From the IMG/VR virus record IMGVR_UViG_3300032092_000087, positions 1 through 39,449 of that record: DNA of 39,449 nt; one strand, written 5' to 3'. Position 1 is the first letter of the stretch. Every line of letters begins with the position of its first letter. This document shows positions 11,701 to 32,691 of this stretch, piece after piece. Origin of the DNA: a virus. A program made the translations under genes and the position numbers. Under the pieces are notes generated by a model, which saw only the letters and a program-made list of their open reading frames with translations, ran no database searches and was not told the DNA's origin.

Positions 11701-14700
11701 TTACTTATCCTTTTCGTATCCGAAGGCGTTGTCCATCTCCTCCTGTATCAGCTCCTCTTGCTCCTTGAGGATTGCATCGATTTCTGATTGGCCATCGTAT
11801 TGCTCATCTTTTTTCCCGTACTGCTCCTCGTAAACCTCTGGGTAGTACCTTTCCAGCTTCTCCTTGCTCATCTGCTTCGGTGGCTTGTACGGCTCAGGTT
11901 CGCTTGGCCTGTAGGACTTGGATACCCCGATGATGTCGTACAGGTTATCTTCGTTGAAGCCCTCGTTGAAGCCTTTGTAGATTCCAATCGCAGGGTCAAT
12001 CGATGTGCCGAGAAGGAATTCAAATATTGGTTTTGCAGCCAATGTCATGTCTTCGTCCTTTGCCCCCTTCTCAACCCTTTGGGCAATACTCAGAAGCGGG
12101 TCGAGTGCATCGCTGGATGTCCTGAACAGCTTCTTCTTTGCAGCGGCCTTCTCTTCTGGTGTGCCTGCATTCCAAAGCTCGTAGATGTTCATGCTCTTCT
12201 CAACGGCAGCACCAAATCCCGGCATCTGCTTCAGGAGCTCTATTCCCATGAGAGCTTCTTTCATCTTGTCAAGAACCTCCTCCTCGTCTTCCTTGGTTCC
12301 GCTCATCAGCTTGACGATGTTTGCAGCAGCGATGAACAGGGCGTTTGATAAGCCGAAGTTAATAACAAATGCTCTCATGTCTTTGGCGCGAGGCGGCTTG
12401 CCACTGCCCAAAACACTCTTCTCCATGTTGTTCCATGCCATGTAGCACTTGTTTATCTGCAGGAACGCTGTGCTAGAGAACATCGTGAAGAACTGGGTGA
12501 GCTCGTTGTTCGACATTTGAAGAGAGTTCTTCTCCGTCTCTCGCTTGCTCTGCGCAGTTGCGTTGTAGTCGTTGAACTTCTCAAGGGCATCCTCTTTCTT
12601 CATGCCATTCATAATGTCCCTCCTGTAGTTCACGAGATATGCCGCGATACCACCGAAGTCACCAATCATGGTCGGCATGCCGCTCGCCCTTCTGACTCCT
12701 CTCCTAAGGTATCCCTTCCAGTTCATGGCCTTGTCAATCGGGACGTAGACCCTGTTGCCGCCTGTGATTCCGTAGATGTCACCATCCACTCCGTCGTCCC
12801 ATCTCTTCCTGAACGTGGCCGACTCCTTGTATGCCATCTTCATCCACTTTGGCAGCGTGGCCAATACGACAGCTGTGTCCAGCGTGAACATCAGCATGTC
12901 GACAGGAGTTTTGATTACCCCCGGGACCTTAGAGTCTTTGCCGAAGTAGCTGTAGTCCTCGAATGCGTTCGGGAAGGACGAAATCATCTGCTTCGGGATT
13001 TGCATCAGCTTGAATGCAAGAGCAACTCCGGTGTACTTGATTGCTATTTTGGATAAGAAGGTACTGGTCCTCTTCGCCCCGGCATTCGGGTTCACGGCAT
13101 AGTTGACCAGTTTCTTCATCACAGGCTTGATGCCAAGCTGCGTGATGTAGTTGTCGACGCTTCCGTTTTTGAAAATAGCATTCAGGTTCTTCACCGTCGT
13201 GGCGAAAGCCTTGTACCTCTCCATGGACTTGAAGTACTCTTCGAGGACCTCCGTGAAGTCGAAGTTGATGTCGACCTCACCTGTAGTGTCAACACGCTCT
13301 TTCAGGGATGGTGATGTCTCGGCATTGAATATCCCGTTGAAGTCACCATCCTCAATCATGCTCTTGTCTACCGACACAGGCTTTGTGATTGTCGGGAAGT
13401 AGTTCGATTGGTGTCCCAAGTTGACGTTGTTCACGAACTTGTAGATGTCGTTCACGGAGTTGAAGTAGTCATCGCTGAGGTACTCTACAATCAGGTCTGC
13501 AAACGCCACAGGCTCAGAACCAAGCTCGCCTTTGATGAACTCGATGACATTGTCGTTGAAGCCCATGTTCGCAAGTTTGGCACGCTGGGTGCTGTTGAGC
13601 GACAGCGCATAAACCCTGAGCATCATGTTCTTGGTCATGTTGAGGGATTCACCCTCGGAGAAGAATTGCTCGATTATTTTCCCGCCTTTTTCCACTTTCC
13701 TGACACCAGCACCCATCACGACCTTAATCACCTTTCCATCGGAAACCATCCGCTTGATTTGGGTGTATCCGTTCCTGACCCCCGGGATTGTATTAGCCAT
13801 GGAGTCAAGCGTGCTCATCTGCTTGTAGTATCCGGCCTGAGCCTTCTCTATCGCCCGGTTGAGCGGCCTGTACACGTTGTCCGTGAAGAATGTCATCCCG
13901 CGGGAATGGTCGTCAATGTCGTTGCAGAACGAGTGAAGGTGCAGCAACTGCGCCCTCAGGTATTGCTTGATGCCCATCCCCGGCATGTACTTCCAACGCT
14001 CCTTGAGCTTCTTCAGCGACTTGAACACCCGGCCCTTTAGGAGCAGGCTCTTGATTTGAGATTGCTCCTGCACCGCGTCACGTCTGCTTCCGTCCGGCCT
14101 GTAAAGCTCCGGAGCCATGGCCATGACCTGACGCTCGGCAGCGTCTGCGAGGTTCTTGTATCCCTCTGACCTAACCGCCCGTGCGACCTTGAGACGCTTG
14201 ATGGATTCTCCGCGCATGGTCTCGAGCACCTCGATGATGTCGTTGACTTGCTCGACATCCATGGAATTAAAATCCTCGAACATGTCAAGCGCAACAGCTG
14301 CATCAGCGAGCTCAGACTCCGCGAGCGTCAATGGCTCCCCGGCTTGCTGCTTGATGAAGATATCACCAAGGTCACCTGAGATTGTTGCGGCCTCAACATC
14401 CTTGGCATACTTGTCATACAGGGCCCTGTCGCCTTTCATCGAGTTGTAGATTTTCTTAGCCACCTCGAAGAACGACTGTCCAATCTCGTCAAGGCCACCG
14501 CTGCGTACCTTGCCGCTGGAGGTCATGGCTTTCTTGGCCTTCTTGCTGAGCAACTCTTGCATCTTCCTGACAGATTCTGCTCGCATCTTTTCGCGCTGCT
14601 TATCGATGAGCGTGGCGATTTTCTCCAAGTCTACCAAGAGCGAGTCTTGTGTCGCGTTTGCGATGATGCCCATGATTTGCTCGGCAGACTTTGCGGACAG

Positions 14701-17700
14701 CACATCCACCCCCGGCAACATCTGGCTGACGATGTTCTTGAGCCTTACCTTGGCCGCGGTGAGCTCTTTCTCTGCGATTACCCTTTGCTTGCTCTTCAGG
14801 TCGGCTACAAGCCGGTCCATGGCTCGTTGGATTCTGACCCCAACCGGGTTGCTCACACTGCTGTCGAATGCAGCGATGAGCTTCATCTGCGTGGTCTTGT
14901 TCTGGGCAATGAAAATCGGGTCTGCCTTGAGCATCTCGATTGCCATGGCCCGTGTCTGGATTGGGGTCGGCTTTCTCTTGCTGCTTTTCGCCCATTGGGC
15001 AAGTTTGTGCCTTGTCCTGCTGAACAGCTTGCGGCCTTCCCTGACACCACCCTCGACATCTGCAAATTCAGCCGGGAGAATAGTAAGCGGGTCGACGTTT
15101 ACTATCATCTCCGCGTTGATGTCAGCGACCTTGTAACCCTTGTTTCTGAGCACTTGCTTGATGGCTGCGTCCGAATACCCGTTCGCACGACCGGTCTTGA
15201 TGATGCTCCGCATCGTGTTGACCCCGAACGGCTGCTGGGAGAACGATACCACCTGTTCATCGGTCGTCATTTCCTGCTGAATTGTCGACTTCTGAGACTT
15301 TGAGATGATTTCCTCGAGCTTAGAATTGTATTCCTCCTCGGTCTGTGTCATGGCAAGATACAGGCCTTCATGGGTCGTGCGCTCGTTCGCCACAGCATCC
15401 CACACCATGTGGTGGCCGATGTACCCTGCAAGCTCCTTTGGGACTCCAAACGCATTGCCTACCATCTCCATCCTTTTCAGGATTTCAGTCTGAAGGTCGT
15501 TCAGTTTTTTTGAAGACTTCCCAAGGGTCTTCGTTATCTCGAGCTCCGTTGTGGATATTTCTCCTTTAAATATCGCTCCCCTTAGCCATCCCTTGATTTC
15601 TCTGGTGTCGATTACGCCTCTGGTTCCTATCCCCAAGAAGTTTGATACAAAACCAACCTTGCCTTGAGATATACCCTTGAGTTTGCTGATTGAATCAAAC
15701 AGCTTTTGCTCGTCAATAATACCGCCTTTTAAAAGCGAGTTGAACTCGTTGATGTTGGTAATGTTTATTTGACCTGAGCTTGGAGCTCCGAATACGCTTT
15801 TGTATTTTGATTCACCCTTGCCCCAAAAGCCAAAAGGCTTCATCGCTGATGAAAAGAAGTTCACATCGGCATCAGAAACCTTTCCGCGCTCAATATTTTC
15901 AAGGAACATCTTACCCTCTTTGGTTGTTAGCAAGAAAGCCATTGCACCTTCAGGGCGAATCCTTCCATCTGATTCTATAAACAATCCCGGTATGTCTTTT
16001 CCGGAGCTATTGATGAATCTTTTGGCAGATATAGGGCCTGTCTGTATTGACGAGATGGACATCAGGTATGACTTTGCAACATCCTTGGAATCAACAAGAC
16101 CATTCCTTAGTTTTTCGCCCATGGTCTGGATGTGCTTCATCACGCCACCGAGGTAGTTCGGGTTGTTGTTTGCGACGATTTGAATCATCGACTCCGGAGT
16201 GATGAACCCTGTCTCGTCATGCACGACCTGCGCCTTGGAGACTACAGCGTCAGGCACAGAGATTTCATGTATTTTCCCCTGTTCTGCTGCTACAATCTTT
16301 GTTATTACAGGTTGGCTTTTCTCCTCTTTACCAATAAGGTTTTGGTATTTAGACTTGATTTCATTTGGCATCAGACTCCATGCGTTCACTCTAATATCAG
16401 GGACACCTACAACTTCGCCTATCAGCTCGTTAAGGTATGTTGAGTGCTTTGCTTTTTTGCCTACGCCCATTGGCTTTCCTACAAGCATGATGTCATTCTG
16501 ACTGAATCCATTCTCCCTGTAAAATGAATCCCTAAGCTCATTTAGGTCCACAAATATGTCGAATCCGTTCAGCAGCTCTTTGAGTGAGCCTTTTGGCATT
16601 GTCTTCAGCTTTTTGATTGCTTCGACAGCGACCATGAATTCTTTCCTTTTTGTTGATTCCCTGAATTCTTCAAATGATTTCAATGGCTCTAGGATTGCTC
16701 TCATAGCCTTAAGCTCATTTGTTTCTTTTCCAGAGAATCCCAATATGGCATTCTTGAACGTCTCAAAGTCTGCGTTCTTCTCGATTCTCTTTATGAACAA
16801 ATCAATAACGCTCTTATTGAATAGTTTAGACGCTTCAGGGGAACCGCTTATGAAGAAGATATAGTCTGCCTTCTCAGACATGCTATTCAGTGACTTGGAT
16901 TGCACTCCGCTCGCCCACAGAACCCCTTCCTTTATATTGTCAGGGTCTAATGCAAAACTTGGTCCTGCATCCAAATAGTGATTGTCACCAATCTTTTCAT
17001 CAAAGTAGTAACCTCTTCCTAGCTGGTCTGCCATCCAAAACCATACCTTTTTCTTCTCCCTTGCGATTTCTTCAACAAGAGAAGCAAAGTCAATTTTGAA
17101 TTTGTCTGTAACGAATGAAAGTTCTCCTGCTTTTTCGCTGAAATTTAGCTTAGGTCCTGAGATAGAGCTCCTACTTATTTCTACAGGCCCTCCAATAGAA
17201 ACTGAAAGACCCTGCTCTACTGCCTGCTGCTCCTCGACCACCTCTTCGTTCATCGTAGTGGTGAACGTGTTCAGGAACTCGACGATGTCGGCCTTGGTGG
17301 TTGCTCCCTTGAACGGGACCCATCCGCCTGTCAGCCTGTTCACCACCTTGTTGATGAGCATTGCCAGCTTGTTAATCAGCGATGGTGTCAGCAGCTCCTG
17401 CCTGTTCGATAGCATGGCAGCAAGCTCCACGATGAACTCTTCGTGGCTCTCGGACTCCCCATACAATTCAGCGAACTGACTGAGCTCAAAGTCTTCCTGA
17501 GCCGAGAGCATCTTCGACACCTTGTCCCGGAACTCCTTGAACAAGGCCTGATTGTCCCCGAATGCCTTGAACAGCATCGCGTGCGCCAGCTCGTGGGGGA
17601 CAGTCCGCTCGTTTGCAATCCCCAAGTTGATGTCAATCCTGAACTTTCCGCCAGCCCTTCTGGAGATGTTTCCGGCAGAATCCGCCCGGCCCTTCTCCGT

Positions 17701-20700
17701 TTTCATCGCTTCATTGTACGAGGTAGAATCCTCATGGATGAAAATCTGGGCCTGAGGGAACACCTTGCTCATTATTTGCATGGCCCTTGCAGCCTGCTGC
17801 ACAATCCTCTGTTGACGGCCCGGGCTCACACGCCCCGCCAATGCCTCCATTGCGGCCCTCTCAGACACGTTCACTGGGGCTCCGGTGTCTTGTGTCGATT
17901 GAGTCTTTGGCTTAACCTTGGGCTTCTTTGGGGTCATTATGACCCTGTCGCCGCCGAGCTCCTTGTGTACCTTGTATCCACGCTTGGTAAGCATCCTGCG
18001 CATTGCAGGATTCACCACGTCGACCATGATTTTCGACTTCGGGTTCTGCCTGACATTGTCCGGCATCTGCCTGACTGCATCCAGAAGTCTCGAGCCGACA
18101 CCCTTCTTCTCAGACCTCTCGTCAACAACCACATCGAAGCTGTACTCGCCTGTCTGCTTGTTGAACGAGCGGAAGGCTCCTCCAATGACGTTACCTTCAG
18201 TATCCCGGGCAACGAATGCGACTTCGCGGCTGCCATCAACATCAAGCCCGCGTCTTTTTGCAAGCTCGCGAACCTGAGTATCCTCGCCCGCGGAGACCTC
18301 GCCAACATTGAAGTCAGCGTCTATGTCAGTATCGACCGGGCCGGTTTCAGTGCTCGTGCTGTTGACGGCCTCGGTTAGGCTCTCGACCTCAATGTTCAGG
18401 TCGTTCCTCTCGGAAATCATCTTGCTCAGCTCGTCAACACGGGCCTTGTTGGCATCGTAAACCTTCTGCTGGTTCGGTGACATCTTCCCACCGGACGCAA
18501 CCTTCTCGGCCAAGAACGACATGACCGACCCGGCCTCCTCTTCGGTGAGCGTGTCGGACATCATCTTGCTCGTCCAACGCTTCGCCGGCTGCGGGATAGA
18601 CTCGTTCAGCTCGTCAAGGCGTAACTTCGAAGTTACCAGTTCCTGCTCGGTTGTCTCCGCTGTCAGCCCTTCTTCTTGGACTTCTTCTCCGGCAACCTCT
18701 TCAAGTCCTGCTTCGGATACTCCTTCCTCCACCGCTTCGCCAAGTCCGGCTTGTTCGCGTACAGATACTTGACCTGTTTTTTGCTTGAAAATGGCATCGT
18801 ATTTCTGTTTTGTTGCTTCGTCGTTGAATATCTGGACCCGGGCGCGGCGAAGTTGTCTCGCGCTCATGCTCTCAGCCTTTTTCTCGAACTGGGACCGGGT
18901 CATCACCTCTCCGTTGATTGAGTATTTGGTCACCGGTTTCTTGGCGAACTCCTCAATCTGTGCACGCTCCTCGACCGGGACCATCTGCCCGGTTTGCGCA
19001 AGCCTCGAAATCTCGTTCTTCACATCGGAAATCTTGTCGCTGAAAGCCGACTTCATCTCCTCCGTCACGGACATCTGCTCCTTTGCGGACATCAGCTCCA
19101 TCATCCGGGCCTCGACCTCCACGTTGCCAAGCACTCCTGTCTTTGGCTTCAGGATGGTCTTGACTTCCCGGCGCAGGCCGACGTTCTTCAGGATTTGCTG
19201 CTGAACCTCTTCATCGATTTTCCCGAGCTGCCTCAGGTTGTTCGCCCACTCAGTGATTCGCTTGTCTGACGACCGCTCTCTGGCCATGGCGTTCACATCG
19301 GATGCCAACGTGTATGCATGGGATTGGACAGTGTTGTTTTTTGCCTCCCTATACATAGACATGGCCATCGCCGACGTGTTGTTACCAAGTCCGCCAAGGG
19401 ACTCCAGACCGATTTCCGTCCAGTCTATGTCTTGCCCTGCCATTGCCTGTGCGGCAAATTCTCCGACACCCTCCATCACGGGGTCAAAAACAACACGCTC
19501 TGCAGCCTGAACACCGATTCTTGCCGGTAGTGACGCTGTCTTTGCCACGTTGAACACGCGGCCTGCGACACCTTTCGCCAAGAGGTCAACAAGGGCAATC
19601 GGGACACCACGCTTGAATCCACGCTCTCCGCCCTCAGCCCATACCTCGTCATCCAAAAGGGCCGCCTCGACTTGCTTTGGGTCCATGATGTCATACCCTT
19701 TCTCGCGCATGACATCGAAGATGGAATTCGTGTATTCCATCGCAAGGCTTGTAGCGGCCATACCAGTGGTCAGACCATACCCAGCACCGGGGATAGCACC
19801 AACACCAGCACCCGCTACTGCTCCTGCGCCAGCACCGATTGCAGTTGTCGCCGGGACTATCTTGACCCCGTATGGCAGCATCTGTCCGATGCTTGTCGCA
19901 ACCAGCGTGGCCGTGTATTCAAGCGGGTCTGCAAAGAATGCCTTCCATCCTGAGCCGCCACGGGCTTGTCGGAACCTTGTCTCGGCAAGTGAGGTTTCCC
20001 CGGATTGCAACGCATTGTATTTTACAATGGCCTCCGTCAGGGCCTTCCTGTCTGTCGGGTCCTCAACATCGTAAATACCCATTGACGCATACAAGAGCTC
20101 CTCAGCGGCCTGCCCCCTGTACCATGAGTCCACAAAGGCGGTCCCAAACCCTTCGAGATTCTCTATGTATTCCTTTTCGGCCTTCTTGTTCCACTTCGCG
20201 TCAAGATATGTCTTCGACTCCTCGAACTTTGCTGCCGCATTCTGCTTGGCGAACGTGATGTTCTCAAGGGACCTGCGGGCAACGTCAAGCGTCTCAGCCT
20301 CCTCCGGTGTTTTTGGGACCACCTTTGAGATTTCTGTGATTGGCACATTGAACGCAGCCTCAAAGTTGGTATTTAGCTCCTGCAGCTTCGCCTTGCTCTC
20401 GGCGTTTATCTTGACAGCCTCCTTGATGGTCTCCTGACGCTTTTTCTCGAGCTCCAAGTCGAATCCTTCCCGGGCAAGCGTGACTTTCCCGTCTTGCATG
20501 AATTCGTTGTCATAGACTTGCTCAAGCAAAACATCGCGCTCTTTCGAAAGGCGCGACAAGTTGCTATTCATAAAATCAGTCGTCTTTTTCCCAGACCGAT
20601 AGTGCAAAGGTCTTCCGTCTGGCCCAAAGTACTCCGGAAACCGGGACCGCTCAGAATACGGGATGTTGTCCACCTTGCCGCCCATGATGTTCTGGATGAC

Positions 20701-22203
20701 ATCAATCTCGTCCTGAACGTCGTTGAAACGCTCGTACTTCCTGCGCTCCTCAACGTAGTCGAGGCCACGCTCGGCGTAGTACTTCTTCCCGAGGATGTAG
20801 CTCTGGTCAACGTCCTTCCACTCCCCTGCGGCAAACCTGTTCGCGTCGTCAGGCGTGCGAAGCGTGAGCACCTCTCCACGTTTACGGGCCTCTGCAAGCG
20901 CACCTTCAATGTCGTCCCCAAAGTCAATCCAGTCCTTTGGATTCGTGCTTGGCTTGTCGCCCCTTGGGAACAGGGTCGGGATAACCATGTTGTCGACCGA
21001 AGCGAACTTCACGGTCGACATGGTCCCGTCCGGATTCCTCATGGCTGTCGGCCTCATTTTCTTAGCCTTGATGGCGTTCGAAATGAAGTCGTCATCCATC
21101 TGTTCTGACGGCAAAGCGTTGGCGTAGATGAATTCCGAGACCTGTTTCAGCGTTTCTGCAGGATTGACCTTTGCAGCGTCACCGACAGGGATTTCAACCG
21201 CGTTCTTCCCGTCGCGGGTGCTGACCATGATGTTGTCGGTCCCCCATCCGGACTCCTCGAAGTACATCCCGTACTTACGGAACATGTCGTTGAGCTTTGG
21301 CACGAGCTCCTCTTCGCTCTTGCTTAGCATGTCCGCGGTGAGGCCACCGAGGGCAGCAGCAAACTCAGGGTCCTGTGCAGCAATCTGATTGGCAAGCCTG
21401 CGTGCATCCTCTTCAGCCTTTAGTTTCTTGTCAATCTGCTCCTGTTTCGCGGGGAGCATGGCCTCAGTCTCCTGCCTATATTCTACTGCTTTCTTGGCTC
21501 TTGCGGCTCTCTCCTGCTTGATGTAATCCGGGACATACTTGTCCGCTGGGATACCTCTCTGAATTGCGCGAGGGTCTTCATTACGCAGTTGAGCCTCAGC
21601 CTGAGCGTATGCTTGAGCAATCTCCTCGTCGGTCATTTCGCTGACGAGCTGCTCCTGCTGCTTGAAGTGCCTGTCTACCCGCTGCTCAGGAGTGCTCGGC
21701 TTGACCGGGCCCTGACCTTGGAGCTGCTCCGGCTGAAGCTGTCCGAGAACCGGAGCAACCTGTTCCATCGTCTGCTGGGTGGAGGCTTGGTACTCCTCCT
21801 CCATCGCCTGCTCAGCGGCCAGCTGCTTCTGGCCATAAGAGCCCGGCTCCATACCGATTTGGTACGGAGACTGGGGCTTGGGCTGAGGCTTCAGGTACTC
21901 GGGAAGTATCCCATTAGAGGCGGTAAAGCCCGAAGAACCATCTCCCGAAGACGATTCCATACCTGTGAGGCCAGCCTTTTTTTTTTCAGGCTCGTTCACG
22001 GGTGGGGCGGTCGCCTTCGTCTTCTGAGCGAATTCTTCCGGAGACATGAATGATGGGTCCTTAGACAAAATCCATTTGTACATGTCTTCTCTGTACACGT
22101 CGTTTGACCTCATCTTTTCTTTGAATGAGTCTGGCGTGTGGGCATCACTAAACGTATTGTCTTGGGTAAGGAGCCAAGAGTAAAGTCGGTCTAAGTATTC
22201 CAT
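11701..22203 (-). CDS. Giant polyvalent virion protein, 3500 aa (GNAT and zincin domains)
   Basis: Probably packaged in the particle and ejected with the DNA. Residues 1-65 hold two copies of a roughly 30-residue repeat of the form Y-x-W-(L/I)-L-x-x-D-x-x-F ... F. Residues 120-700 are Gln/Glu/Lys-rich and coiled. A Gly/Ala-rich hydrophobic stretch near 775-830 could insert in membranes. A GNAT acetyltransferase domain lies at about 1310-1420 (K-G-V-G-S-R-L-L near 1370), and a zinc metallopeptidase-like motif H-E-L-A-H at 1537-1541 with acidic residues downstream. An AT-rich segment (about 1665-2240) follows, then a long helical C-terminal region with hydrophobic segments near 3070, 3115 and 3290. 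I see no D-x-D-G-D RNA polymerase motif. It is last in the leftward operon, after two internal virion proteins, where T7 has gp16. Enzyme roles are inferred. Confidence 0.85.
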   Translation of the reverse strand: MEYLDRLYSWLLTQDNTFSDAHTPDSFKEKMRSNDVYREDMYKWILSKDPSFMSPEEFAQKTKATAPPVNEPEKKKAGLTGMESSSGDGSSGFTASNGILPEYLKPQPKPQSPYQIGMEPGSYGQKQLAAEQAMEEEYQASTQQTMEQVAPVLGQLQPEQLQGQGPVKPSTPEQRVDRHFKQQEQLVSEMTDEEIAQAYAQAEAQLRNEDPRAIQRGIPADKYVPDYIKQERAARAKKAVEYRQETEAMLPAKQEQIDKKLKAEEDARRLANQIAAQDPEFAAALGGLTADMLSKSEEELVPKLNDMFRKYGMYFEESGWGTDNIMVSTRDGKNAVEIPVGDAAKVNPAETLKQVSEFIYANALPSEQMDDDFISNAIKAKKMRPTAMRNPDGTMSTVKFASVDNMVIPTLFPRGDKPSTNPKDWIDFGDDIEGALAEARKRGEVLTLRTPDDANRFAAGEWKDVDQSYILGKKYYAERGLDYVEERRKYERFNDVQDEIDVIQNIMGGKVDNIPYSERSRFPEYFGPDGRPLHYRSGKKTTDFMNSNLSRLSKERDVLLEQVYDNEFMQDGKVTLAREGFDLELEKKRQETIKEAVKINAESKAKLQELNTNFEAAFNVPITEISKVVPKTPEEAETLDVARRSLENITFAKQNAAAKFEESKTYLDAKWNKKAEKEYIENLEGFGTAFVDSWYRGQAAEELLYASMGIYDVEDPTDRKALTEAIVKYNALQSGETSLAETRFRQARGGSGWKAFFADPLEYTATLVATSIGQMLPYGVKIVPATTAIGAGAGAVAGAGVGAIPGAGYGLTTGMAATSLAMEYTNSIFDVMREKGYDIMDPKQVEAALLDDEVWAEGGERGFKRGVPIALVDLLAKGVAGRVFNVAKTASLPARIGVQAAERVVFDPVMEGVGEFAAQAMAGQDIDWTEIGLESLGGLGNNTSAMAMSMYREAKNNTVQSHAYTLASDVNAMARERSSDKRITEWANNLRQLGKIDEEVQQQILKNVGLRREVKTILKPKTGVLGNVEVEARMMELMSAKEQMSVTEEMKSAFSDKISDVKNEISRLAQTGQMVPVEERAQIEEFAKKPVTKYSINGEVMTRSQFEKKAESMSARQLRRARVQIFNDEATKQKYDAIFKQKTGQVSVREQAGLGEAVEEGVSEAGLEEVAGEEVQEEGLTAETTEQELVTSKLRLDELNESIPQPAKRWTSKMMSDTLTEEEAGSVMSFLAEKVASGGKMSPNQQKVYDANKARVDELSKMISERNDLNIEVESLTEAVNSTSTETGPVDTDIDADFNVGEVSAGEDTQVRELAKRRGLDVDGSREVAFVARDTEGNVIGGAFRSFNKQTGEYSFDVVVDERSEKKGVGSRLLDAVRQMPDNVRQNPKSKIMVDVVNPAMRRMLTKRGYKVHKELGGDRVIMTPKKPKVKPKTQSTQDTGAPVNVSERAAMEALAGRVSPGRQQRIVQQAARAMQIMSKVFPQAQIFIHEDSTSYNEAMKTEKGRADSAGNISRRAGGKFRIDINLGIANERTVPHELAHAMLFKAFGDNQALFKEFRDKVSKMLSAQEDFELSQFAELYGESESHEEFIVELAAMLSNRQELLTPSLINKLAMLINKVVNRLTGGWVPFKGATTKADIVEFLNTFTTTMNEEVVEEQQAVEQGLSVSIGGPVEISRSSISGPKLNFSEKAGELSFVTDKFKIDFASLVEEIAREKKKVWFWMADQLGRGYYFDEKIGDNHYLDAGPSFALDPDNIKEGVLWASGVQSKSLNSMSEKADYIFFISGSPEASKLFNKSVIDLFIKRIEKNADFETFKNAILGFSGKETNELKAMRAILEPLKSFEEFRESTKRKEFMVAVEAIKKLKTMPKGSLKELLNGFDIFVDLNELRDSFYRENGFSQNDIMLVGKPMGVGKKAKHSTYLNELIGEVVGVPDIRVNAWSLMPNEIKSKYQNLIGKEEKSQPVITKIVAAEQGKIHEISVPDAVVSKAQVVHDETGFITPESMIQIVANNNPNYLGGVMKHIQTMGEKLRNGLVDSKDVAKSYLMSISSIQTGPISAKRFINSSGKDIPGLFIESDGRIRPEGAMAFLLTTKEGKMFLENIERGKVSDADVNFFSSAMKPFGFWGKGESKYKSVFGAPSSGQINITNINEFNSLLKGGIIDEQKLFDSISKLKGISQGKVGFVSNFLGIGTRGVIDTREIKGWLRGAIFKGEISTTELEITKTLGKSSKKLNDLQTEILKRMEMVGNAFGVPKELAGYIGHHMVWDAVANERTTHEGLYLAMTQTEEEYNSKLEEIISKSQKSTIQQEMTTDEQVVSFSQQPFGVNTMRSIIKTGRANGYSDAAIKQVLRNKGYKVADINAEMIVNVDPLTILPAEFADVEGGVREGRKLFSRTRHKLAQWAKSSKRKPTPIQTRAMAIEMLKADPIFIAQNKTTQMKLIAAFDSSVSNPVGVRIQRAMDRLVADLKSKQRVIAEKELTAAKVRLKNIVSQMLPGVDVLSAKSAEQIMGIIANATQDSLLVDLEKIATLIDKQREKMRAESVRKMQELLSKKAKKAMTSSGKVRSGGLDEIGQSFFEVAKKIYNSMKGDRALYDKYAKDVEAATISGDLGDIFIKQQAGEPLTLAESELADAAVALDMFEDFNSMDVEQVNDIIEVLETMRGESIKRLKVARAVRSEGYKNLADAAERQVMAMAPELYRPDGSRRDAVQEQSQIKSLLLKGRVFKSLKKLKERWKYMPGMGIKQYLRAQLLHLHSFCNDIDDHSRGMTFFTDNVYRPLNRAIEKAQAGYYKQMSTLDSMANTIPGVRNGYTQIKRMVSDGKVIKVVMGAGVRKVEKGGKIIEQFFSEGESLNMTKNMMLRVYALSLNSTQRAKLANMGFNDNVIEFIKGELGSEPVAFADLIVEYLSDDYFNSVNDIYKFVNNVNLGHQSNYFPTITKPVSVDKSMIEDGDFNGIFNAETSPSLKERVDTTGEVDINFDFTEVLEEYFKSMERYKAFATTVKNLNAIFKNGSVDNYITQLGIKPVMKKLVNYAVNPNAGAKRTSTFLSKIAIKYTGVALAFKLMQIPKQMISSFPNAFEDYSYFGKDSKVPGVIKTPVDMLMFTLDTAVVLATLPKWMKMAYKESATFRKRWDDGVDGDIYGITGGNRVYVPIDKAMNWKGYLRRGVRRASGMPTMIGDFGGIAAYLVNYRRDIMNGMKKEDALEKFNDYNATAQSKRETEKNSLQMSNNELTQFFTMFSSTAFLQINKCYMAWNNMEKSVLGSGKPPRAKDMRAFVINFGLSNALFIAAANIVKLMSGTKEDEEEVLDKMKEALMGIELLKQMPGFGAAVEKSMNIYELWNAGTPEEKAAAKKKLFRTSSDALDPLLSIAQRVEKGAKDEDMTLAAKPIFEFLLGTSIDPAIGIYKGFNEGFNEDNLYDIIGVSKSYRPSEPEPYKPPKQMSKEKLERYYPEVYEEQYGKKDEQYDGQSEIDAILKEQEELIQEEMDNAFGYEKDK
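18621..18636. repeat. Dispersed palindrome copy 7, GTAACTTCGAAGTTAC (perfect)
   Basis: The only copy that is a perfect 16-bp palindrome inside a coding region. On the minus strand it is read V-T-S-K-L in the giant protein. Confidence 0.88.
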
Positions 22204-24979: not shown

Positions 24980-25381
24980 TCAGAGAGCCTTAATCATTTC
25001 GTTTGTGTAACTATCCCCTTTAATGTATCCGCTCGCCATGTATGCGTGCATCAAACTCTCGTGCTTGATGAGGGCGTATGCGAACTTGTATCCGGATGCC
25101 GTGGCCACAGCCGTGAGCGACGATACCAAGAGCTCAATCGCCTCTTGGCGGCTCTCTCCCCGGTAGTCCTTGTCTGAGATAATCCAGTCGACCCATGCCA
25201 CCCCGCTGTTCGTGGCGTACATGAATCCGGCGCAGACCGGTGTCTCGTCATCGAAAACAATCATGCCACCGGTTCCTTTCTCGGGCAAAAAATCCCTCGA
25301 AGGAGCCTGCCAGCCCCAATCCTTCCACCATCCGCACAGGATGTTGTCGTAGTCTTCGTGGCTGAGTATCCTGATTTGCAT
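24980..25381 (-). CDS. GNAT-family acetyltransferase-like protein, 133 aa
   Basis: The size and pattern fit a GNAT fold: an N-terminal strand-helix (R-I-L-S-H-E-D-Y), a central beta hairpin with V-C-A-G-F-M-Y-A-T-N-S-G-V-A-W-V-D-W-I-I, then D-K-D-Y-R-G-E-S-R-Q-E-A-I-E-L-L where the acetyl-CoA loop should be, and a C-terminal Y-A-L-I-K-H. The coenzyme-A loop is degenerate compared with the usual R/Q-x-x-G-x-G/A. Similar small proteins sit among tail genes of Bacteroidota podoviruses. It may modify a virion or host protein. A palindrome copy ends 8 bases upstream of its ATG. Confidence 0.72.
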   Translation of the reverse strand: MQIRILSHEDYDNILCGWWKDWGWQAPSRDFLPEKGTGGMIVFDDETPVCAGFMYATNSGVAWVDWIISDKDYRGESRQEAIELLVSSLTAVATASGYKFAYALIKHESLMHAYMASGYIKGDSYTNEMIKAL

Positions 25382-26231: not shown

Positions 26232-27959
26232 TTATGCTCCTCCGCAATCGCATCCAATGAAGGTGACAGTGCCGGTTCCGGCTGTCACAGAAACAGTCCC
26301 CGGCCTCGCGCAGACCAGCACGGACAACCCAACTCCTACGGAGACCGTCATCGGCGTATCGTCACAGGTGGTGTACTCGACCGTGGCGGTGATGAGCCCG
26401 GTATTCTCGGCCTCGTACCTCACGCAAGTGTCTTCGCATCCGAACGCTCCTGCGTTGTTGTCGACGATGTTCGTCGTCGGAAGGTCGACCAGTTCCTCGG
26501 CCAATACCTCAAACCAGCAGTCTGCGTATGCAGGGTCGCTCACTTTCACGAGCCACCCGATGGTCATCTCCGTGTCCGAAGATGCCACAACCTCTGTCGC
26601 GGGTTCGCCACACAGGCTCAATAGGTAGTTGAACGTGTAGTCGCACGAGCAGTTTTCGAACTCAATCGTCAGGTCTGCAGGGATGATTGCATCGTATTCA
26701 CGGGCGCAAATCCTGACCACGTCCCCCGGGGTGATGAATATCCCGGACACCGCGGTCCCGTCGCATGCCGTGTAAATCATCTCGATGTCAACCAGACCTG
26801 TGTTGGTCAGTTTTAGCTGGCTGCACTGGTCCGTGCAGTCTCCAGTGGCCATTCCGAGGAACGTGGTGTCCTCAGGGTCTAGCGTCGTGGAAATTACCTC
26901 CCAAGAGCACTCTCCGTATCCAGTGGCATCAAGCAGGACGAAGTCGCCAATCGAAAGCGGCATTGCCGTCGTGATTACCCGCTGGTCTGCAGGGGATGAG
27001 TAGCAACGCTCGACGATGTACCTTGTCTCAGGTCCGCAGACACCAAAACCGATTACGACACCATTGGCATCAACCTCTACCCAGTTCCAAGACCCGCTCA
27101 TCGCTCCGGTGTTGTAGAAGCCAGCGGAAAGCGGTGTGACACCATTCTGGTCTGCAAATACCAAGTCGTACATGCCAAGGACACCAGCGGCCCCGTTGAC
27201 ATGGGCGACGTAGCTCGTCTTCGTTGCCGGTGACAAGCATGCGTCGTCACCTGTGGCCTCGACCTTGCCGCTTGCCCACGAGATGAGCGGAGCCGGGCAG
27301 TTCACGGTAACCTCGAAGTTACCCGGACTCCCGCAAACGGACGTGATGGTGTTGTGGACGATGGTATTGAAGTTGGTCGCCTTCGGTATCACCATGATGC
27401 ACTTGGTCGGAGACACAGCCGTGAGCTGCAGCTCAGGGGCCGTCACCGTCACGCTGAGGATGTTGCTTGTGGCTTGGAACGAGCCGGAGATGTACTCGTA
27501 CTCATCAAGCGAGTGCGGACTGCCCGCGACCATCCCGCAGTCCGATGCCGTCTCGCCAAGGTACGTCGGCGTGAACGGGTCCCCGGATTGCAGCCACCCG
27601 TGAAGGCTTGAGCTGAGGCCGTTGTAGGTTGTCCCGAAGAATGCCATGAATCCCATGGGCACTTGCACCGGATTGAACTCGATGATGATTGCACCAAGGG
27701 CCGAGCCTGTGTCGATGTCAAGGTCAAACACTCCGGTTCCCGGGGTGGCCAAGAACGTGATTGTTGTTCCGCTGCACTCTGTAACACACAGCGGGCACGG
27801 ATTGACAGGCTGCAGGACGCATCCAAGCAGCTCCCGGACGATTGTCCCATCGCTGTAGTATCCGTCCGGAGCGCATGTGGTCATGGCCGCATCGCTGAAC
27901 ACAGCGGTGGCATCAGCCAGTGTGGCTGCATTCAGGTAGTATGTTCCAGTGGTAGCCAT
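26232..27959 (-). CDS. Cys-rich fibre/appendage-like protein with duplicated module, 575 aa
   Basis: The N-terminus reads T-G-T-Y-Y-L-N-A-A-T-L-A-D-A-T-A-V-F-S-D-A-A, then A-P-D-G-Y-Y-S-D-G, a small repeat domain seen in Bacteroidota phage and surface proteins. The middle is beta-rich and Gly/Thr-rich. The C-terminal half is a tandem duplication: about residues 305-439 and 440-575 each consist of a beta domain followed by a Cys-rich module C-x(3)-C ... N-T-G ... Y-T-x-C-D ... C-A ... C-x-C. The same module ends the neighbouring 1576-aa protein. Probably a surface-exposed fibre or receptor-contact protein, perhaps disulfide-stabilised. The role is inferred. Confidence 0.7.
   Translation of the reverse strand: MATTGTYYLNAATLADATAVFSDAAMTTCAPDGYYSDGTIVRELLGCVLQPVNPCPLCVTECSGTTITFLATPGTGVFDLDIDTGSALGAIIIEFNPVQVPMGFMAFFGTTYNGLSSSLHGWLQSGDPFTPTYLGETASDCGMVAGSPHSLDEYEYISGSFQATSNILSVTVTAPELQLTAVSPTKCIMVIPKATNFNTIVHNTITSVCGSPGNFEVTVNCPAPLISWASGKVEATGDDACLSPATKTSYVAHVNGAAGVLGMYDLVFADQNGVTPLSAGFYNTGAMSGSWNWVEVDANGVVIGFGVCGPETRYIVERCYSSPADQRVITTAMPLSIGDFVLLDATGYGECSWEVISTTLDPEDTTFLGMATGDCTDQCSQLKLTNTGLVDIEMIYTACDGTAVSGIFITPGDVVRICAREYDAIIPADLTIEFENCSCDYTFNYLLSLCGEPATEVVASSDTEMTIGWLVKVSDPAYADCWFEVLAEELVDLPTTNIVDNNAGAFGCEDTCVRYEAENTGLITATVEYTTCDDTPMTVSVGVGLSVLVCARPGTVSVTAGTGTVTFIGCDCGGA
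26235..26642 (-). repeat. Second copy of the tandem ~135-aa unit
   Basis: Codes for about residues 440-575. It repeats the order of the first copy: C-W-F-E-V in place of C-S-W-E-V, then C-E-D-T-C ... Y-T-T-C-D ... C-A ... C-D-C at the very end. The two copies share pattern more than identity, so the duplication is old. Confidence 0.6.
26643..27047 (-). repeat. First copy of the tandem ~135-aa unit in the fibre-like protein
   Basis: Codes for about residues 305-439 of the 575-aa protein. Order of the unit: beta domain with a Cys pair and a C-S-W-E-V segment, then the Cys-rich module beginning C-T-D-Q-C. The second copy follows directly at 26235-26642. Confidence 0.6.
27307..27322. repeat. Dispersed palindrome copy 9, GTAACCTCGAAGTTAC
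   Basis: Inside the fibre-like gene; on the minus strand it is read N-F-E-V-T. With flanking bases it makes GGTAAC...GTTACC. Confidence 0.85.
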
Positions 27960-27960
27960 A

Positions 27961-30900
27961 TCAAGTCACAATATTACAACCGCAAACGGATTCTGTGATT
28001 ACCAAATCTGAATCCCTGTACGGGACCGGTATGGTCGAGGAGCAAAGCACGGTCGTCCCGAGCGGCACACCAGCGATAATGTAGGTTCCCGTGTCGCAGT
28101 CCGTGTATCCCACGTTCGCGTTTTCGTCCGCCTCGTTGTAGATTGAATAGGTCCTGCAAAGCTCTTCGCAAAGGTCGCATCCGCAGCATGCGTCGAATGC
28201 ATTTCCTTTCTCAAAGCAAAGCGTCACCTCGCGAGGAGTCCTGAAGTCCCAAATCAGGTACAGGTACTGGTCGGCCGATGCCGGCATGACAAAGTCCGCG
28301 TAGTAGGTAGGGGACGCTCCCACGTTTGGCGATGCCACCGTGGATGCTGCGAGCAGCGCGGAGATGTCCAGTGCCGTGTTCGCGTACAGCGTGTTCGACC
28401 TGAGCCACCTGAAGCCGTTCAGAGACGGGTTGAAGTCGAAGTTGTCGAAGCCAATCTTGTTCGACTGGATTCGCACGTCTGCTCCGTCAAGAGGAAAGCT
28501 GCCCGAGCCTTGGAAGCCCGCTGTCGAGACATAGCGCGATACCAGAGGCAGGCCGGGGCCCGGCTGGAACGTCACGATGTTCGATGTCGTGGGGCTCACA
28601 TACGGGCTGTCTTCCCACAGGTACTCAGCGTGGATGAAAAGGCCTACATCTATCGGGTCGGTCAGCACCACCTCAATGATAGTAAGGGGCGTTGCGACCG
28701 GGCACTGCACGTTGATTTTGATTGAGGCGGTTCCCGTCGTTGTGACCAAGATGGTCGCGGTCGTCGGAGAGACACCCGGCTTGTTGATTGTGAGCGTGCC
28801 TCCTGTGGTAACGTCGCCAGAGGTCGTGGTCACGCCATCAAACGTGACGGACACGTTGATTGTGTCGCCGGGGGTGAGGCTGACAATGGACCAGTCAACA
28901 TCGAAGTCCCCGATAAGCACGCTCAGGTCCACGCAGAACTCAAGCGGAAGCTCAGGGTCAGGGATGGTCACCGTCCTCTTGAAACCGCACTCCACGCAGT
29001 CGTCAGGAACCGGGACCGGTGTGTCGTTTGTTGACAGGACGTACTCCGTCATGTACGGGTCGTACCCTCCGACCTTCTGCGTCATCAGGGAAGCGATGAA
29101 CATGTCCCGGAACCACGGGCGCATACCCGCGTCAGAAACCACGCGCATCTGCTCGTTGTTGTACGAGTCGCCCTTGAGTTGGATTACAGCCCCGCGCTTC
29201 GCGTCCGTGAAGAACTTGTCAGAGCCCCACTTGGCGAACGACTCAGGGTTGAAACTTATTCCGAATTTCTCGATGCGAGCAATCTGAGTCCCCAGTACCT
29301 CGGGCACAGACGTGATTGCACCACCCGCAGCGGAATCAGAGAGCAGATTCTTACCAGCCAGTACATAGGAAATCTTGTCTTCTTGCAGTGTAAGGATATC
29401 GGTCTCGCGTCCGTCAATCAGCATGACCGGGCCGAACGAGTCCTCCAAGGCCTTGAAGTTGAGCAAGCCCATGTTGAATGCGTTCAGCCTGTTGACGTTG
29501 CTCTCGTCGTTGTAGACTCCGGAATACGTCAGGTCTGCGAACCGGTCGGCCTCCTTGTAGTCCTGAGCAGCTACCGATGTCACCCGGTTGCCGAGATTGA
29601 AGGTCTTGCCGACCACGGAGTCCCGGACCTTGTACGATTCGGCTCCGTTGCCAAAGGCGTAGCAGTTGAAGAACTCCGTTGACAGGATTGCCGGCTGCGC
29701 TCCTGTCTGGTCCTGCTCATCATCTTTCCCGTTGGACAAGTGGTATCCTGTGGCCGTGTCAATCGGGAACGAAACATGGTTCTCGAAAAACACGTCTGGG
29801 AGCGTGTCTGATGGCTCAGTTTCAAAAATCAAGGTGTTGTCAGCCCTGAAGACAGATATGCTCACCTTGAGGTTGGAATTGCCCGCCTTGGACACTCCGC
29901 AGGCGATTGTGCCGCTGATGTTAAGAGCAAGCAGTTCGCTGTACGGGTTACCCGGAGCGGTATTGTCTCGTACGAATTGATACTTGTTATTACAAAGGTC
30001 AGCAAGGGTAGTTGTTCCTGTTATCCCGCCGATTGCACCCGTAAAAAGTACGGGATTGTATGTGTTTCCTATTGAACATCCAGTGCCTCCTACCTCCTCA
30101 AAACCATCGTTCAGGATTTGGTCGATATTGTCCCCGTCAAACCAATCCTTAAAGTTGTTGTAGTTTGATGTCGAAACAAGTGTCTTAGTGAGCTTGTAAT
30201 ATCTTTTCTCACAGTTACCTGTTCCGCTGCTTGCTCCTCTCCTATCGAACTCGAAGTCAAAAATGATTCGGCTTCCCGCCGGGATATCGTAGTCTATCCA
30301 TTTTCCAAGTGTGCTGTCATATCTTCCAAGCGGATAGTTTACAAATGGACCCCGGTTGTTTTTCTTCGATGTCGCACTCTTTGTCCCGTAGTTGATGTAC
30401 GAGAGTTCGTCAACAATAAGAGACAGCGCATTCGGGTTCACCTTCATGTACACGCCAGACGGGACATTCACATCCACGTTGGGGTCGAGTGTGCTCGGGA
30501 TTGTAAGGAAACCCTCCTCTTTTGCTTCTTTTTCGAGAACCGTGACGTATTTGCAGTTGATGCCCGGGCCGGAGCTGTCGGCCTTCACAATAAGCCTGTC
30601 ACCAGTCTCTACCTTCCTTGCATTCTCACCCTCGAGCAAGATGTAGGCAGCGGCAGTGGCGGGGTCCAAGAAGAAGATGTTGGCGTAAATAGTCTCGTAG
30701 TTTTCCCTGTCGGCCTTGAGCACAAACTTGTACCGGGTAGCCCACTCAGGAGCAATCTGGGTGATTGGAATCGTGACCCAGATGCTGTTCTTTTGGTTGC
30801 TGTAGGAGCACGGAACGTGGACCGTGTTGTTGTTGCTCACGAGTGCCGTGGATGCCCTGTTGAACTCGTCCATGTAGACGATGCCAACCTCATACCCCCT

Positions 30901-32691
30901 GTTGCTGTGCAGGCTCTTCACGTTCGAGATGTTTACGAACGTGGCATCTGCACTCACGATATTGCAGAACTCATACACCTCGTACTGAACCGGGGTGTAT
31001 GTTGCTGGGTCCTCGACGTAGTGCATTGCCGGGATTTGAAACCCGATGACATTGCTGCCGATTGATGCAGAAATTGCGATTGGCTGTCCTCCACCCGATA
31101 TTCCGCTCCTGTATTTGAATACCGGGGGGCTTGGTGACGGGGCGGGGTTTCCTGCTTGTGCGTTTGGCATGGCGCAGTTATACACGTCCGTGAACGTGGA
31201 GCCGTCGCATGATGTTGGTCCAATAGAAGCCCACACCGGCAAGATTGTTCCAGCTGTTCCAACAGCATCGGTAAACTCGGTGCTTGTCGCCAAGTCGTAA
31301 ACGGTGGCGTAGTCTCTCGGCAAAACGAACGACCAGCTCACGTCTACATCCTGAGTCTTTGTGCTTGGGTATGGCGTGTTCCCGACGTATTTCACGTTCG
31401 AGACCGACATGTTGATGTTGATGACAGCCCCGGCAACAAGGTCGCCTGCAACCGAAGTCAAGTCAATCTCCAAGATGCTGTCAGCAATGGTCTCGATGCT
31501 TCCGAGGATGTAATTCCCGTCAATCGTTCCGTCGTAGACATCTGTGTTGTTGATGAGTTCACTTTTAAGTGAAGCGACGTAGTCGAGCCTGACATCGTTG
31601 CCGTTCTTGTCAATGATGTCGTACCCCTCGACGTAGTTCCCGTACACGAGCCTGTTGCCCATGATTGTCTGGGCCTTGGCAAACCGGGGCACGTTGTCGT
31701 ACAACCTGAGAAGCTCAGCCTCCGGGAGAACCGTGAAAATCTTTGAGTTGGTGAACGTGTAGGTCTGGTTCACGTTGTCGGCATAGCCCATCGTGGCCTT
31801 GTCCAGCTTCTCAATCACCTTGATGGTGTTGTTCCCGGCCTCCTTGAACAAGAGGTCGATACCAACCACCAGCGGCCCGCCAGTGTTGAACGTGATGATG
31901 ACAGAGTTGCTCGTGTTCACCATGCCCTCGTTCAGGAAGCTCTCGACGCTAAAACTGAATACTCCCGGGTTGAACGCAGGCTCAGAGAACTGGGACGTTG
32001 CAGAGTACTCGTTGTCTGCGTACCTGTACCTGTAGCCGAAGCAGATGAACCGCTCCTCCATGAAGTTCTCCTCGCTTCCGGTGTTCACCGGAAGAATCTC
32101 CGGAGATGTCACCGGAGGCTTCTTGATGACGAGCAGCGACTCGGCTGAGAACTGGTCAAGCAGGAACAGAGGCGTTGGATAGGTCCGTAGCACATTGATG
32201 AACCGCGGAGCGTTGTAGTCGTCGGTCCAGAACAGCATGCCCTCGCTGTTCGAATCCACCAAGTTCACCCCGGTGATGACGTACAGCGGATTGAAGTTCA
32301 GGGTCGTGTTCACGCCGCCACCATCGTCGATGCTCACGACGTGGTATGTCAGGACGTTCGTCTGCACGTTGAACGACACAATCATGTCGAGCTTCCCGGT
32401 GGCCCCAAGGGAGAAAGACGGGTCATGCACGAACCAGTAGATGGTCTCGTTCGCCCCGTCCTCGTATGACCCGATTGTCCGGGCGTTCGCGCTCAGGGCG
32501 GTCCCATCGACGTACTGGATTTGAGTGAGCTGCTCGTTGCCCTTTGAGTTCTCAAGCGCACCGATGTCGCTGCCCTCGGAAGAGCCAAGCCTGCAGTTGA
32601 GCGCATGGATATACTCACCATCTGGGATGATGCGCGTATCCAACGCCTTGTTCATCTTGCCGGCAATGAAATTCCTTGAAAGATTCGCCAT
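27961..32691 (-). CDS. Tail stabilisation / muzzle-type protein, 1576 aa
   Basis: The N-terminal signature G-K-M-N-K-A-L-D-T-R-I-I-P-D-G-E-Y followed by S-S-E-G-S-D-I-G and E-N-S-K-G-N is characteristic of the long 'stabilisation' protein of crAss-like and other Bacteroidota podoviruses, which forms the distal tail muzzle. It is mostly beta-rich. Residues about 755-900 (30000-30420) are encoded by somewhat AT-richer DNA. The last 72 residues (1505-1576) are a Cys-rich module (C-D-L-C ... Y-T-D-C-D ... L-C ... C-G-C) found twice in the next protein. It is two bases from the ring-protein gene before it and one base from the gene after it. Confidence 0.85.
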   Translation of the reverse strand: MANLSRNFIAGKMNKALDTRIIPDGEYIHALNCRLGSSEGSDIGALENSKGNEQLTQIQYVDGTALSANARTIGSYEDGANETIYWFVHDPSFSLGATGKLDMIVSFNVQTNVLTYHVVSIDDGGGVNTTLNFNPLYVITGVNLVDSNSEGMLFWTDDYNAPRFINVLRTYPTPLFLLDQFSAESLLVIKKPPVTSPEILPVNTGSEENFMEERFICFGYRYRYADNEYSATSQFSEPAFNPGVFSFSVESFLNEGMVNTSNSVIITFNTGGPLVVGIDLLFKEAGNNTIKVIEKLDKATMGYADNVNQTYTFTNSKIFTVLPEAELLRLYDNVPRFAKAQTIMGNRLVYGNYVEGYDIIDKNGNDVRLDYVASLKSELINNTDVYDGTIDGNYILGSIETIADSILEIDLTSVAGDLVAGAVININMSVSNVKYVGNTPYPSTKTQDVDVSWSFVLPRDYATVYDLATSTEFTDAVGTAGTILPVWASIGPTSCDGSTFTDVYNCAMPNAQAGNPAPSPSPPVFKYRSGISGGGQPIAISASIGSNVIGFQIPAMHYVEDPATYTPVQYEVYEFCNIVSADATFVNISNVKSLHSNRGYEVGIVYMDEFNRASTALVSNNNTVHVPCSYSNQKNSIWVTIPITQIAPEWATRYKFVLKADRENYETIYANIFFLDPATAAAYILLEGENARKVETGDRLIVKADSSGPGINCKYVTVLEKEAKEEGFLTIPSTLDPNVDVNVPSGVYMKVNPNALSLIVDELSYINYGTKSATSKKNNRGPFVNYPLGRYDSTLGKWIDYDIPAGSRIIFDFEFDRRGASSGTGNCEKRYYKLTKTLVSTSNYNNFKDWFDGDNIDQILNDGFEEVGGTGCSIGNTYNPVLFTGAIGGITGTTTLADLCNNKYQFVRDNTAPGNPYSELLALNISGTIACGVSKAGNSNLKVSISVFRADNTLIFETEPSDTLPDVFFENHVSFPIDTATGYHLSNGKDDEQDQTGAQPAILSTEFFNCYAFGNGAESYKVRDSVVGKTFNLGNRVTSVAAQDYKEADRFADLTYSGVYNDESNVNRLNAFNMGLLNFKALEDSFGPVMLIDGRETDILTLQEDKISYVLAGKNLLSDSAAGGAITSVPEVLGTQIARIEKFGISFNPESFAKWGSDKFFTDAKRGAVIQLKGDSYNNEQMRVVSDAGMRPWFRDMFIASLMTQKVGGYDPYMTEYVLSTNDTPVPVPDDCVECGFKRTVTIPDPELPLEFCVDLSVLIGDFDVDWSIVSLTPGDTINVSVTFDGVTTTSGDVTTGGTLTINKPGVSPTTATILVTTTGTASIKINVQCPVATPLTIIEVVLTDPIDVGLFIHAEYLWEDSPYVSPTTSNIVTFQPGPGLPLVSRYVSTAGFQGSGSFPLDGADVRIQSNKIGFDNFDFNPSLNGFRWLRSNTLYANTALDISALLAASTVASPNVGASPTYYADFVMPASADQYLYLIWDFRTPREVTLCFEKGNAFDACCGCDLCEELCRTYSIYNEADENANVGYTDCDTGTYIIAGVPLGTTVLCSSTIPVPYRDSDLVITESVCGCNIVT

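Follow-up and report, generated by a model that had tools for sequence, protein, structure and literature searches.

Why should a phage tail-tip protein end in a small Cys-rich module that recurs twice in the product of the next gene? The question is raised by IMG/VR virus record IMGVR_UViG_3300032092_000087, a complete record of 39,449 bases (the window), which holds the structural region of a crAss-like phage that probably infects Bacteroidota. In Pfam and PHROG searches, minus-strand genes of the window match the portal, virion structural families and the muzzle. Three neighboring genes are concerned, and they and the features within them all lie on the minus strand. P0002 (27961..32691; 1576 amino acids, aa) is a split muzzle protein consisting of a body, an extension and a Cys module. 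P0001 (26232..27959, 575 aa) is an accessory protein encoded between the other two, with relatives that lie between the same two genes. P0003 (25421..26230, 269 aa) is the C-terminal part of the muzzle as a separate gene. Gaps of 1 nucleotide separate the three genes when the start of P0003 is taken as the ATG at 26230; the list of open reading frames (ORFs) also offers a TTG start upstream of this ATG. We find that the modules form part of a variable cassette of the tail tip, within the split muzzle. In the explanation that we favor, at somewhat better than even chances, disulfide-stabilized beta-sandwich modules decorate the tip of the split muzzle and its anchor-docked accessory protein, forming a variable surface for host contact.

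The preliminary description of this DNA had noticed the Cys-rich pattern at the end of P0002 and twice in P0001, within a duplicated unit, and both observations hold, coordinates included; its interpretation is borne out in part. All three copies span 65 residues from the first to the last Cys: residues 1508–1572 of P0002 (27976..28170), residues 375–439 of P0001 (copy 1, 26643..26837) and residues 508–572 of P0001 (copy 2, 26244..26438). Each is supported by profile matches and by strands in AlphaFold2 (AF2) models. The spacing C-x3-C is found in all three, and when they are aligned with one copy from the phage MW202828 (Manatee Spring phage), the invariant positions are six Cys, an N, a Y and a T. 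No fourth copy was found in the window by a module profile including the window copies (E up to 1). The surrounding repeat units of P0001, residues 312–441 (26637..27026) and 444–575 (26235..26630), are identical at 38 of 127 aligned residues (z = 11.4, reached by 0/2000 shuffles), and the first half of the unit repeats independently (z = 6.5, 0/2000 shuffles).

Against 2000 full shuffles, z is 10.4 for P0001 copies 1 and 2, 6.3 for copy 2 and the muzzle copy, and 4.4 for copy 1 and the muzzle copy, where the top-scoring shuffle (52.5) lies above the observed 42. When Cys positions are fixed, the values become 6.7, 3.1 and 1.9, with 0, 11 and 82 of the 2000 shuffles, respectively, attaining the score, so that the pair of copy 1 and the muzzle is weak taken alone. 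Shuffle support is therefore strong for the P0001 pair, moderate for copy 2 and the muzzle, and weak for copy 1 and the muzzle. At the level of sequence comparison, homology of the three copies is settled by cross-profiles without window-like sequences. A profile of 59 muzzle modules matches both P0001 copies (independent E 1.8e-8 and 8.8e-10), and a profile of 32 accessory-gene modules matches the muzzle copy (9.2e-7), window-like loci being excluded from both; the relatives behind these profiles had themselves been collected by means of a profile that started from the copies in the window.

The AF2 models have a mean predicted local distance difference test score (pLDDT) of 91.7 for P0001 and 90.9 for P0002 1200–1576. 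Counted from the first Cys, all copies show strands at +5 to +11, +17 to +22, about +28 to +34, about +38 to +43 and +55 to about +61. Copy 1 lacks a short strand that P0001 copy 2 and the muzzle copy have near +49. The offsets are thus nearly equal, and nothing in this comparison, which is of strand positions and not a superposition, points to different folds for the three segments. The module family is matched in none of the libraries searched (Pfam, PHROGs, NCBIfam, PDB); its profile gives no significant match in the PDB (best E 0.27), and fold searches with the AF2 models are dominated by larger beta-sandwich domains.

The muzzle that carries the first copy is broken into two genes. P0002 matches crAss_MUZ PF25731 (30.5 bits, cut-off 27) and phrog_14478 (E 4.6e-237), and its conserved body (about residues 1–1219, 29035..32691) is collinear with the unsplit muzzles of the elemoA, Gundel and Calle phages. 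The crAss_MUZ_C domain, PF25729, lies inside the single-gene muzzle of these three phages; here it is not on P0002 and is matched by P0003 (E 2.5e-17, 63.5 bits, cut-off 27). The crAss_MUZ family is broad, and the muzzles of MW202828, phi18:3 and elemoA do not match it at E 0.01. On an unsplit-muzzle profile of 1294 positions, the match of the window muzzle extends to 1066 and P0003 covers 1059–1293. The corresponding end and start are 1063 and 1059 in phi18:3, and 1051 and 1059 in MW202828. In all three phages the first chain departs from the profile after a '..GxYDxxxxEYVL' stretch, and the second gene resumes near 'TLTYDDGVEGWTSF'. Both phi18:3 halves, gp114 and gp115, are annotated from virion mass spectrometry.

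Neither single-sequence nor profile searches found the muzzle in the PDB, so we placed the split point on gp44 of crAss001 by way of the unsplit-muzzle profile; there it falls near residue 1200. The IG2 domain of gp44 comprises residues 318–1021 and is inserted into blade 3 (PMC10172136). The split point is beyond IG2, which places the break within the remaining propeller region. We infer the exact propeller blade, and the break would fall at a turn. A two-ORF muzzle is also seen in Maribacter phage Panino (L004, 9995–13908), with a different break, at unsplit-profile positions 927 and 973; either a frame break or an independent split could account for it. In another locus (L145), about 4.5 kb with several additional ORFs lie between the muzzle and the muzzle C-terminal gene.

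Relatives were taken from IMG/VR by searches with P0003, P0002 and an alignment of the P0001 family, using the best 80 of 322, 504 and 447 matches, respectively. Together with named phages such as phi18:3, this gave 224 loci in which the muzzle and its extension are complete; in 202 of them a muzzle C-terminal gene follows downstream. When these loci were dereplicated at 97% identity of the body, 134 were left, including 121 with the muzzle C-terminal gene, and the counts below refer to these 121 genomes. In 117 of them an intervening gene combines a conserved anchor of 62 aa with a variable remainder (anchor genes between the muzzle halves: one in 113, two in 4, none in 4). In P0001 the anchor (27774..27959) ends in CPLCVTEC, and CxxC occurs in 118 of the 121 anchors counted.

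The muzzle extension ends in a motif of its own, LC...CCxC (residues 1491–1505, 28177..28221), whose CCxC is found in 114/121 genomes. All 114 have the anchor: as a separate gene in 109, both separate and fused in 3, and fused only in 2 (L018, L042), where the accessory protein is fused behind the muzzle CCxC and a separate accessory gene is absent. In the fused forms, the anchor begins a few residues past CCxC. Four further genomes possess the anchor gene and a motif that lacks one Cys or is out of register. L056 has the anchor gene and a muzzle ORF shorter than that of L057 despite an identical body, so a frame break is likely. Neither motif nor anchor is present in phi18:3 and L074. The fusions suggest that the accessory protein and the muzzle are probably in one assembly, and that the accessory protein probably belongs to the muzzle; the anchor may dock at CCxC.

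Some muzzle tails show further arrangements around the motif. Those of L026, L033 and L049 contain internal anchor copies bounded on both sides by LC...CCxC, as if alternating. In L115, L123, L129, L136 and L137, another short Cys-rich stretch (YNC..G.C..P.DG.G.Y..L..C...C) stands behind CCxC, and a different domain follows.

The extension comprises about residues 1230–1500 (28192..29004). In the AF2 model its first part, muzzle 1230–1333, resembles a collagen-binding/PPC-like beta-sandwich, a likeness of fold that implies no function. In VIA-align comparisons it aligns with SIDT1 (Z 12.5, root-mean-square deviation (rmsd) 2.1, 99 aligned residues), ColH domain 3 (Z 11.3, rmsd 2.2, 96 aligned) and ColG domain 3B (Z 11.1, rmsd 2.4, 94 aligned). 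The middle region of P0001 (residues 63–310, 27030..27773) is also beta-rich in its AF2 model, and residues 58–225 align with ColG domain 3B at Z 8.2 (rmsd 2.4, 91 aligned), within the range that the tool calls common. A direct profile comparison of P0001 58–225 with muzzle 1230–1333 shows weak similarity (probability 43.5; single-comparison E 2.4e-4). No collagen-binding/PPC-like Pfam match above cut-off was seen among the window proteins, P0001 relatives and muzzle members scanned, and the BACON family was not matched in P0001, P0002 or P0003 (Pfam, E up to 1).

P0001 as a whole matches no Pfam, PHROG or NCBIfam family, and a PDB sequence search gives it no family. Its 73 relatives match no Pfam family at 0.01; two PHROGs without description match 10 and 2 of them. 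Among named phages, P0001, its anchor and the consensus module match MW202828 only, and the repeat region gives a single chance match (E 5).

The number of modules varies among relatives. Muzzles contain no module in 78 genomes, one in 40, three in 2 and five in 1, and accessory sets contain none in 96, one in 15 and two in 10. Different domains occupy the modules' place in other genomes. In the fetched loci before dereplication, the modules are carried by 77 muzzle and 47 accessory ORFs and by 0 others among 10,466 ORFs, and all 37 module matches in 20 hand-chosen whole records lie within ORFs of these two sizes. At 0.60–0.65 body identity, the median identity is 0.62 for the muzzle C-terminal gene, 0.58 for the anchor, 0.45 for the extension, 0.44 for the P0001 middle region, 0.31 for the last accessory module and 0.28 for the muzzle module. 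The modules are the most divergent of the segments compared. In one pair of loci with bodies 92.9% identical (L008 and L009), the accessory proteins are closely alike up to 'GFG-C'; beyond this point L008 has two further units, whereas L009 stops after two more residues. A side observation concerns CP070801.1, the 1.05-Mb chromosome of Candidatus Aenigmatarchaeota archaeon bin1364 (L167, L240), which holds phage-type pieces at two places, a muzzle near 877–899 kb and a muzzle end with an accessory gene near 556 kb, so this assembly is probably chimeric.

On the host side, module relatives are rare. A 42-module profile found matches in 2/395 genomes of the phylum of a Cytophagales metagenome-assembled genome (E up to 1e-4). 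With a protein from one carrier as query, 5/300 genomes of its order matched, two of them new carriers, and the match in G578 covers the N-terminal part of the query only. A class-level search gave 2/395 genomes, and a second profile gave 4/300 genomes of one order and 1/296 of the phylum; the genome sets of these searches overlap. Four carriers (L241, L242, L245, L246) each have one C-terminal four-Cys module in which the first and sixth Cys are absent. Three are short proteins whose starts look like signal peptides when judged by eye, with no prediction tool. The fourth is a 1169-aa frame with DUF5977 immediately before the module, a domain listed among fibrillar adhesin stalk domains in PMC8286594. 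For none of the four carriers do any of 1000 Cys-fixed shuffles attain the score, whichever of three phage profiles is used; the margin is small for L245 with the muzzle-only profile (19.7 vs 19.1). A host-side module used as query matches no named phage. By these profile matches, the module is a domain family that phage tail tips have in common with a small number of host-side proteins.

On the basis of these findings, we propose how the tail tip may be built. The copy homology, the split, the gene order, the variability and the fusions are observed directly. The muzzle chain is broken at a place that maps within the beta-propeller region, and the first chain runs on into the extension, which ends in LC...CCxC and, in this phage, one Cys module. 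P0003 would supply the remaining muzzle and rejoin the first chain. The anchor of P0001 would dock on the muzzle at or near CCxC, so that P0001 brings more beta domains and two Cys modules. The modules would contain disulfides, perhaps formed after lysis. The extension and the accessory protein would then form a variable tail-tip surface that touches the host envelope. Contact with the envelope, which we infer from position, variability and host-side homologs, is the step of which we are least sure; the authors of the crAss001 study likewise inferred the surface-contact role of the distal muzzle from its position (PMC10172136).

Several points weigh against this proposal. The association of motif and anchor rests on just two genomes without both, and the patterns counted as 'partial' motifs were defined after the tails had been inspected. 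Because the loci were selected for their likeness to window proteins, their frequencies are no census, and the genomes are non-independent. Predicted template modeling scores (pTM) of 0.61 for P0001 and 0.69 for P0002 1200–1576 leave the domain arrangement uncertain. Patterns of Cys loss favor no single Cys pairing: 5 of 97 unique modules lack the first and sixth Cys, but in 3 others the fourth and sixth are missing while the first is retained. Fast module divergence may reflect relaxed constraint. Moreover, the modules themselves are not quickly exchanged, and among 66 close pairs (body identity of 85% or more), 30 differ by more than 40 aa in length and only 1 in module number.

The strongest competitor, to which we give a clearly smaller but real chance, is that the modules serve as spacers or staples, stiffening and crosslinking the tip of the tail, rather than as receptor binders, with other fibers binding the host. 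This would fit the conservation pattern, as the six Cys are the most constant positions (Cys in 80, 97, 97, 94, 93 and 84 of the 97 unique modules, column by column) and little else is conserved. In alignment A2, which holds 42 modules hand-picked from 66 after forms with more than four gaps, four-Cys forms included, had been dropped, the invariance of the Cys is partly a selection effect. The staple reading would also fit the description of BACON domains as linkers rather than carbohydrate binders in PMC6949934, and the disulfides that stabilize crAss001 tail parts, as PMC10172136 reports. However, a general staple would hardly be missing from 78/121 muzzles and 96/121 accessory sets, nor would it be expected to diverge fastest among the segments compared.

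A more speculative reading, somewhat less probable still, concerns the split itself. The propeller break may have made the muzzle a socket, in which the near-invariant Cys of CCxC and of the anchor's CPxC form a plug held covalently or by metal, and variable accessory proteins could be exchanged over evolution on the DNA-ejection gate. The accessory protein in this reading is partly built from the domain common to the hosts' exported proteins.

It is improbable that the accessory protein is a fiber adaptor joining tail fibers to the muzzle, with the modules as fiber-docking domains. The window muzzle extension resembles the podophage fiber-tail adaptor family PF23148, but the match (E 0.004, 18.1 bits) is under the cut-off of 27 and occurs in 1/68 members scanned. 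Furthermore, crAss001 fibers dock on barrel hub proteins, not on the muzzle, according to PMC10172136.

We also disfavor, with a slightly lower chance again, the suggestion that modules shuttle between the muzzle and the accessory gene by ongoing recombination and so vary host contact. The same family does occur in both genes, and its presence is associated between them (both 20, muzzle only 23, accessory only 5, neither 73; odds ratio 12.7, uncorrected for kinship). However, identity between muzzle and accessory modules is 0.198 within genomes and 0.190 across genomes, a background level that 291/2000 permutations reach (20 genomes). Across genomes, each accessory copy is more similar to its counterpart at the same position (0.221 for copy 1, 0.260 for copy 2) than to the other position (0.193; 44 pairs), so this duplication is old. 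Muzzle-module identity tracks muzzle-body identity (Spearman 0.58, 1035 pairs), which indicates mostly vertical descent. The recent spread of modules between the two genes, considered in the preliminary description, is therefore not borne out. Nor do the data speak for its suggestion that the two proteins bind the same partner. Least probable, and unsupported here, is a Cys cluster that binds a metal ion such as zinc, also raised there: its six conserved Cys are closely spaced (C-x3-C and C-x-C) and muzzle 1496–1524 shows a non-significant resemblance to the iron-sulfur protein NuoI (E 0.29 and E 0.054), but the four-Cys copies in apparently exported host proteins, which lack both outer Cys as expected for a removable disulfide, indirectly fit disulfides better.

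Downstream of this locus, the gene next after P0003 encodes a 133-aa protein (24980–25381, phrog_17252). At its place MW202828 has a similarly sized gene annotated as an N-terminal acetyltransferase complex subunit, a correspondence of placement and size. Further on, a minus-strand gene encodes a 3500-aa protein (11701–22203) without PHROG match at E 0.001, and a very large gene is placed similarly in MW202828.

In crassviruses, cell-surface sensing by the muzzle has been inferred from its position (PMC10172136), and the opening of the muzzle gate would be linked to it. A split gatekeeper with a variable accessory protein in a natural group may offer a handle on adsorption and ejection separately. 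A literature search limited to one collection of papers, to the terms used, and to titles and the beginnings of abstracts found no description of the split-muzzle and accessory-gene arrangement. The kind of structure is already known, namely variable beta-sandwich decoration of a phage tail.

The closest comparison is crAss001 gp44, a homolog at the tail tip that shares the conserved C-terminal domain. The length of crassvirus muzzles varies through insertions in the regions of the crass and IG2 domains (PMC10172136). While gp44 is one chain of 1371 aa, the chain in the window is broken, and an extension and an extra gene are inserted. Cellulophaga phage phi18:3 (Pachyviridae) likewise has a body with a C-terminal extension and a separate muzzle C-terminal gene; its extension, in contrast, has a Big_9/cadherin-like domain and no CCxC, and it has no accessory gene. 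As for disulfides, the preliminary description had called Cys-rich domains unusual for phage tails, which is overstated. Disulfides are reported for the tail barrel and hubs of crAss001 (PMC10172136), and the tail of phage Milano, with disulfides throughout, is a precedent for their abundance (PMC10811340), although this tail is contractile. The BACON tandem repeats of crAssphage tail-associated proteins are also repeated beta-sandwich modules in Bacteroidota phages and common to host proteins, and were proposed to aid host binding, as PMC6949934 describes. The window module differs in being another, six-Cys family on a split muzzle and its neighbor. The four-Cys modules of Bacteroidota are homologous to the phage module at the profile level, but they are rare, with one seen per protein.

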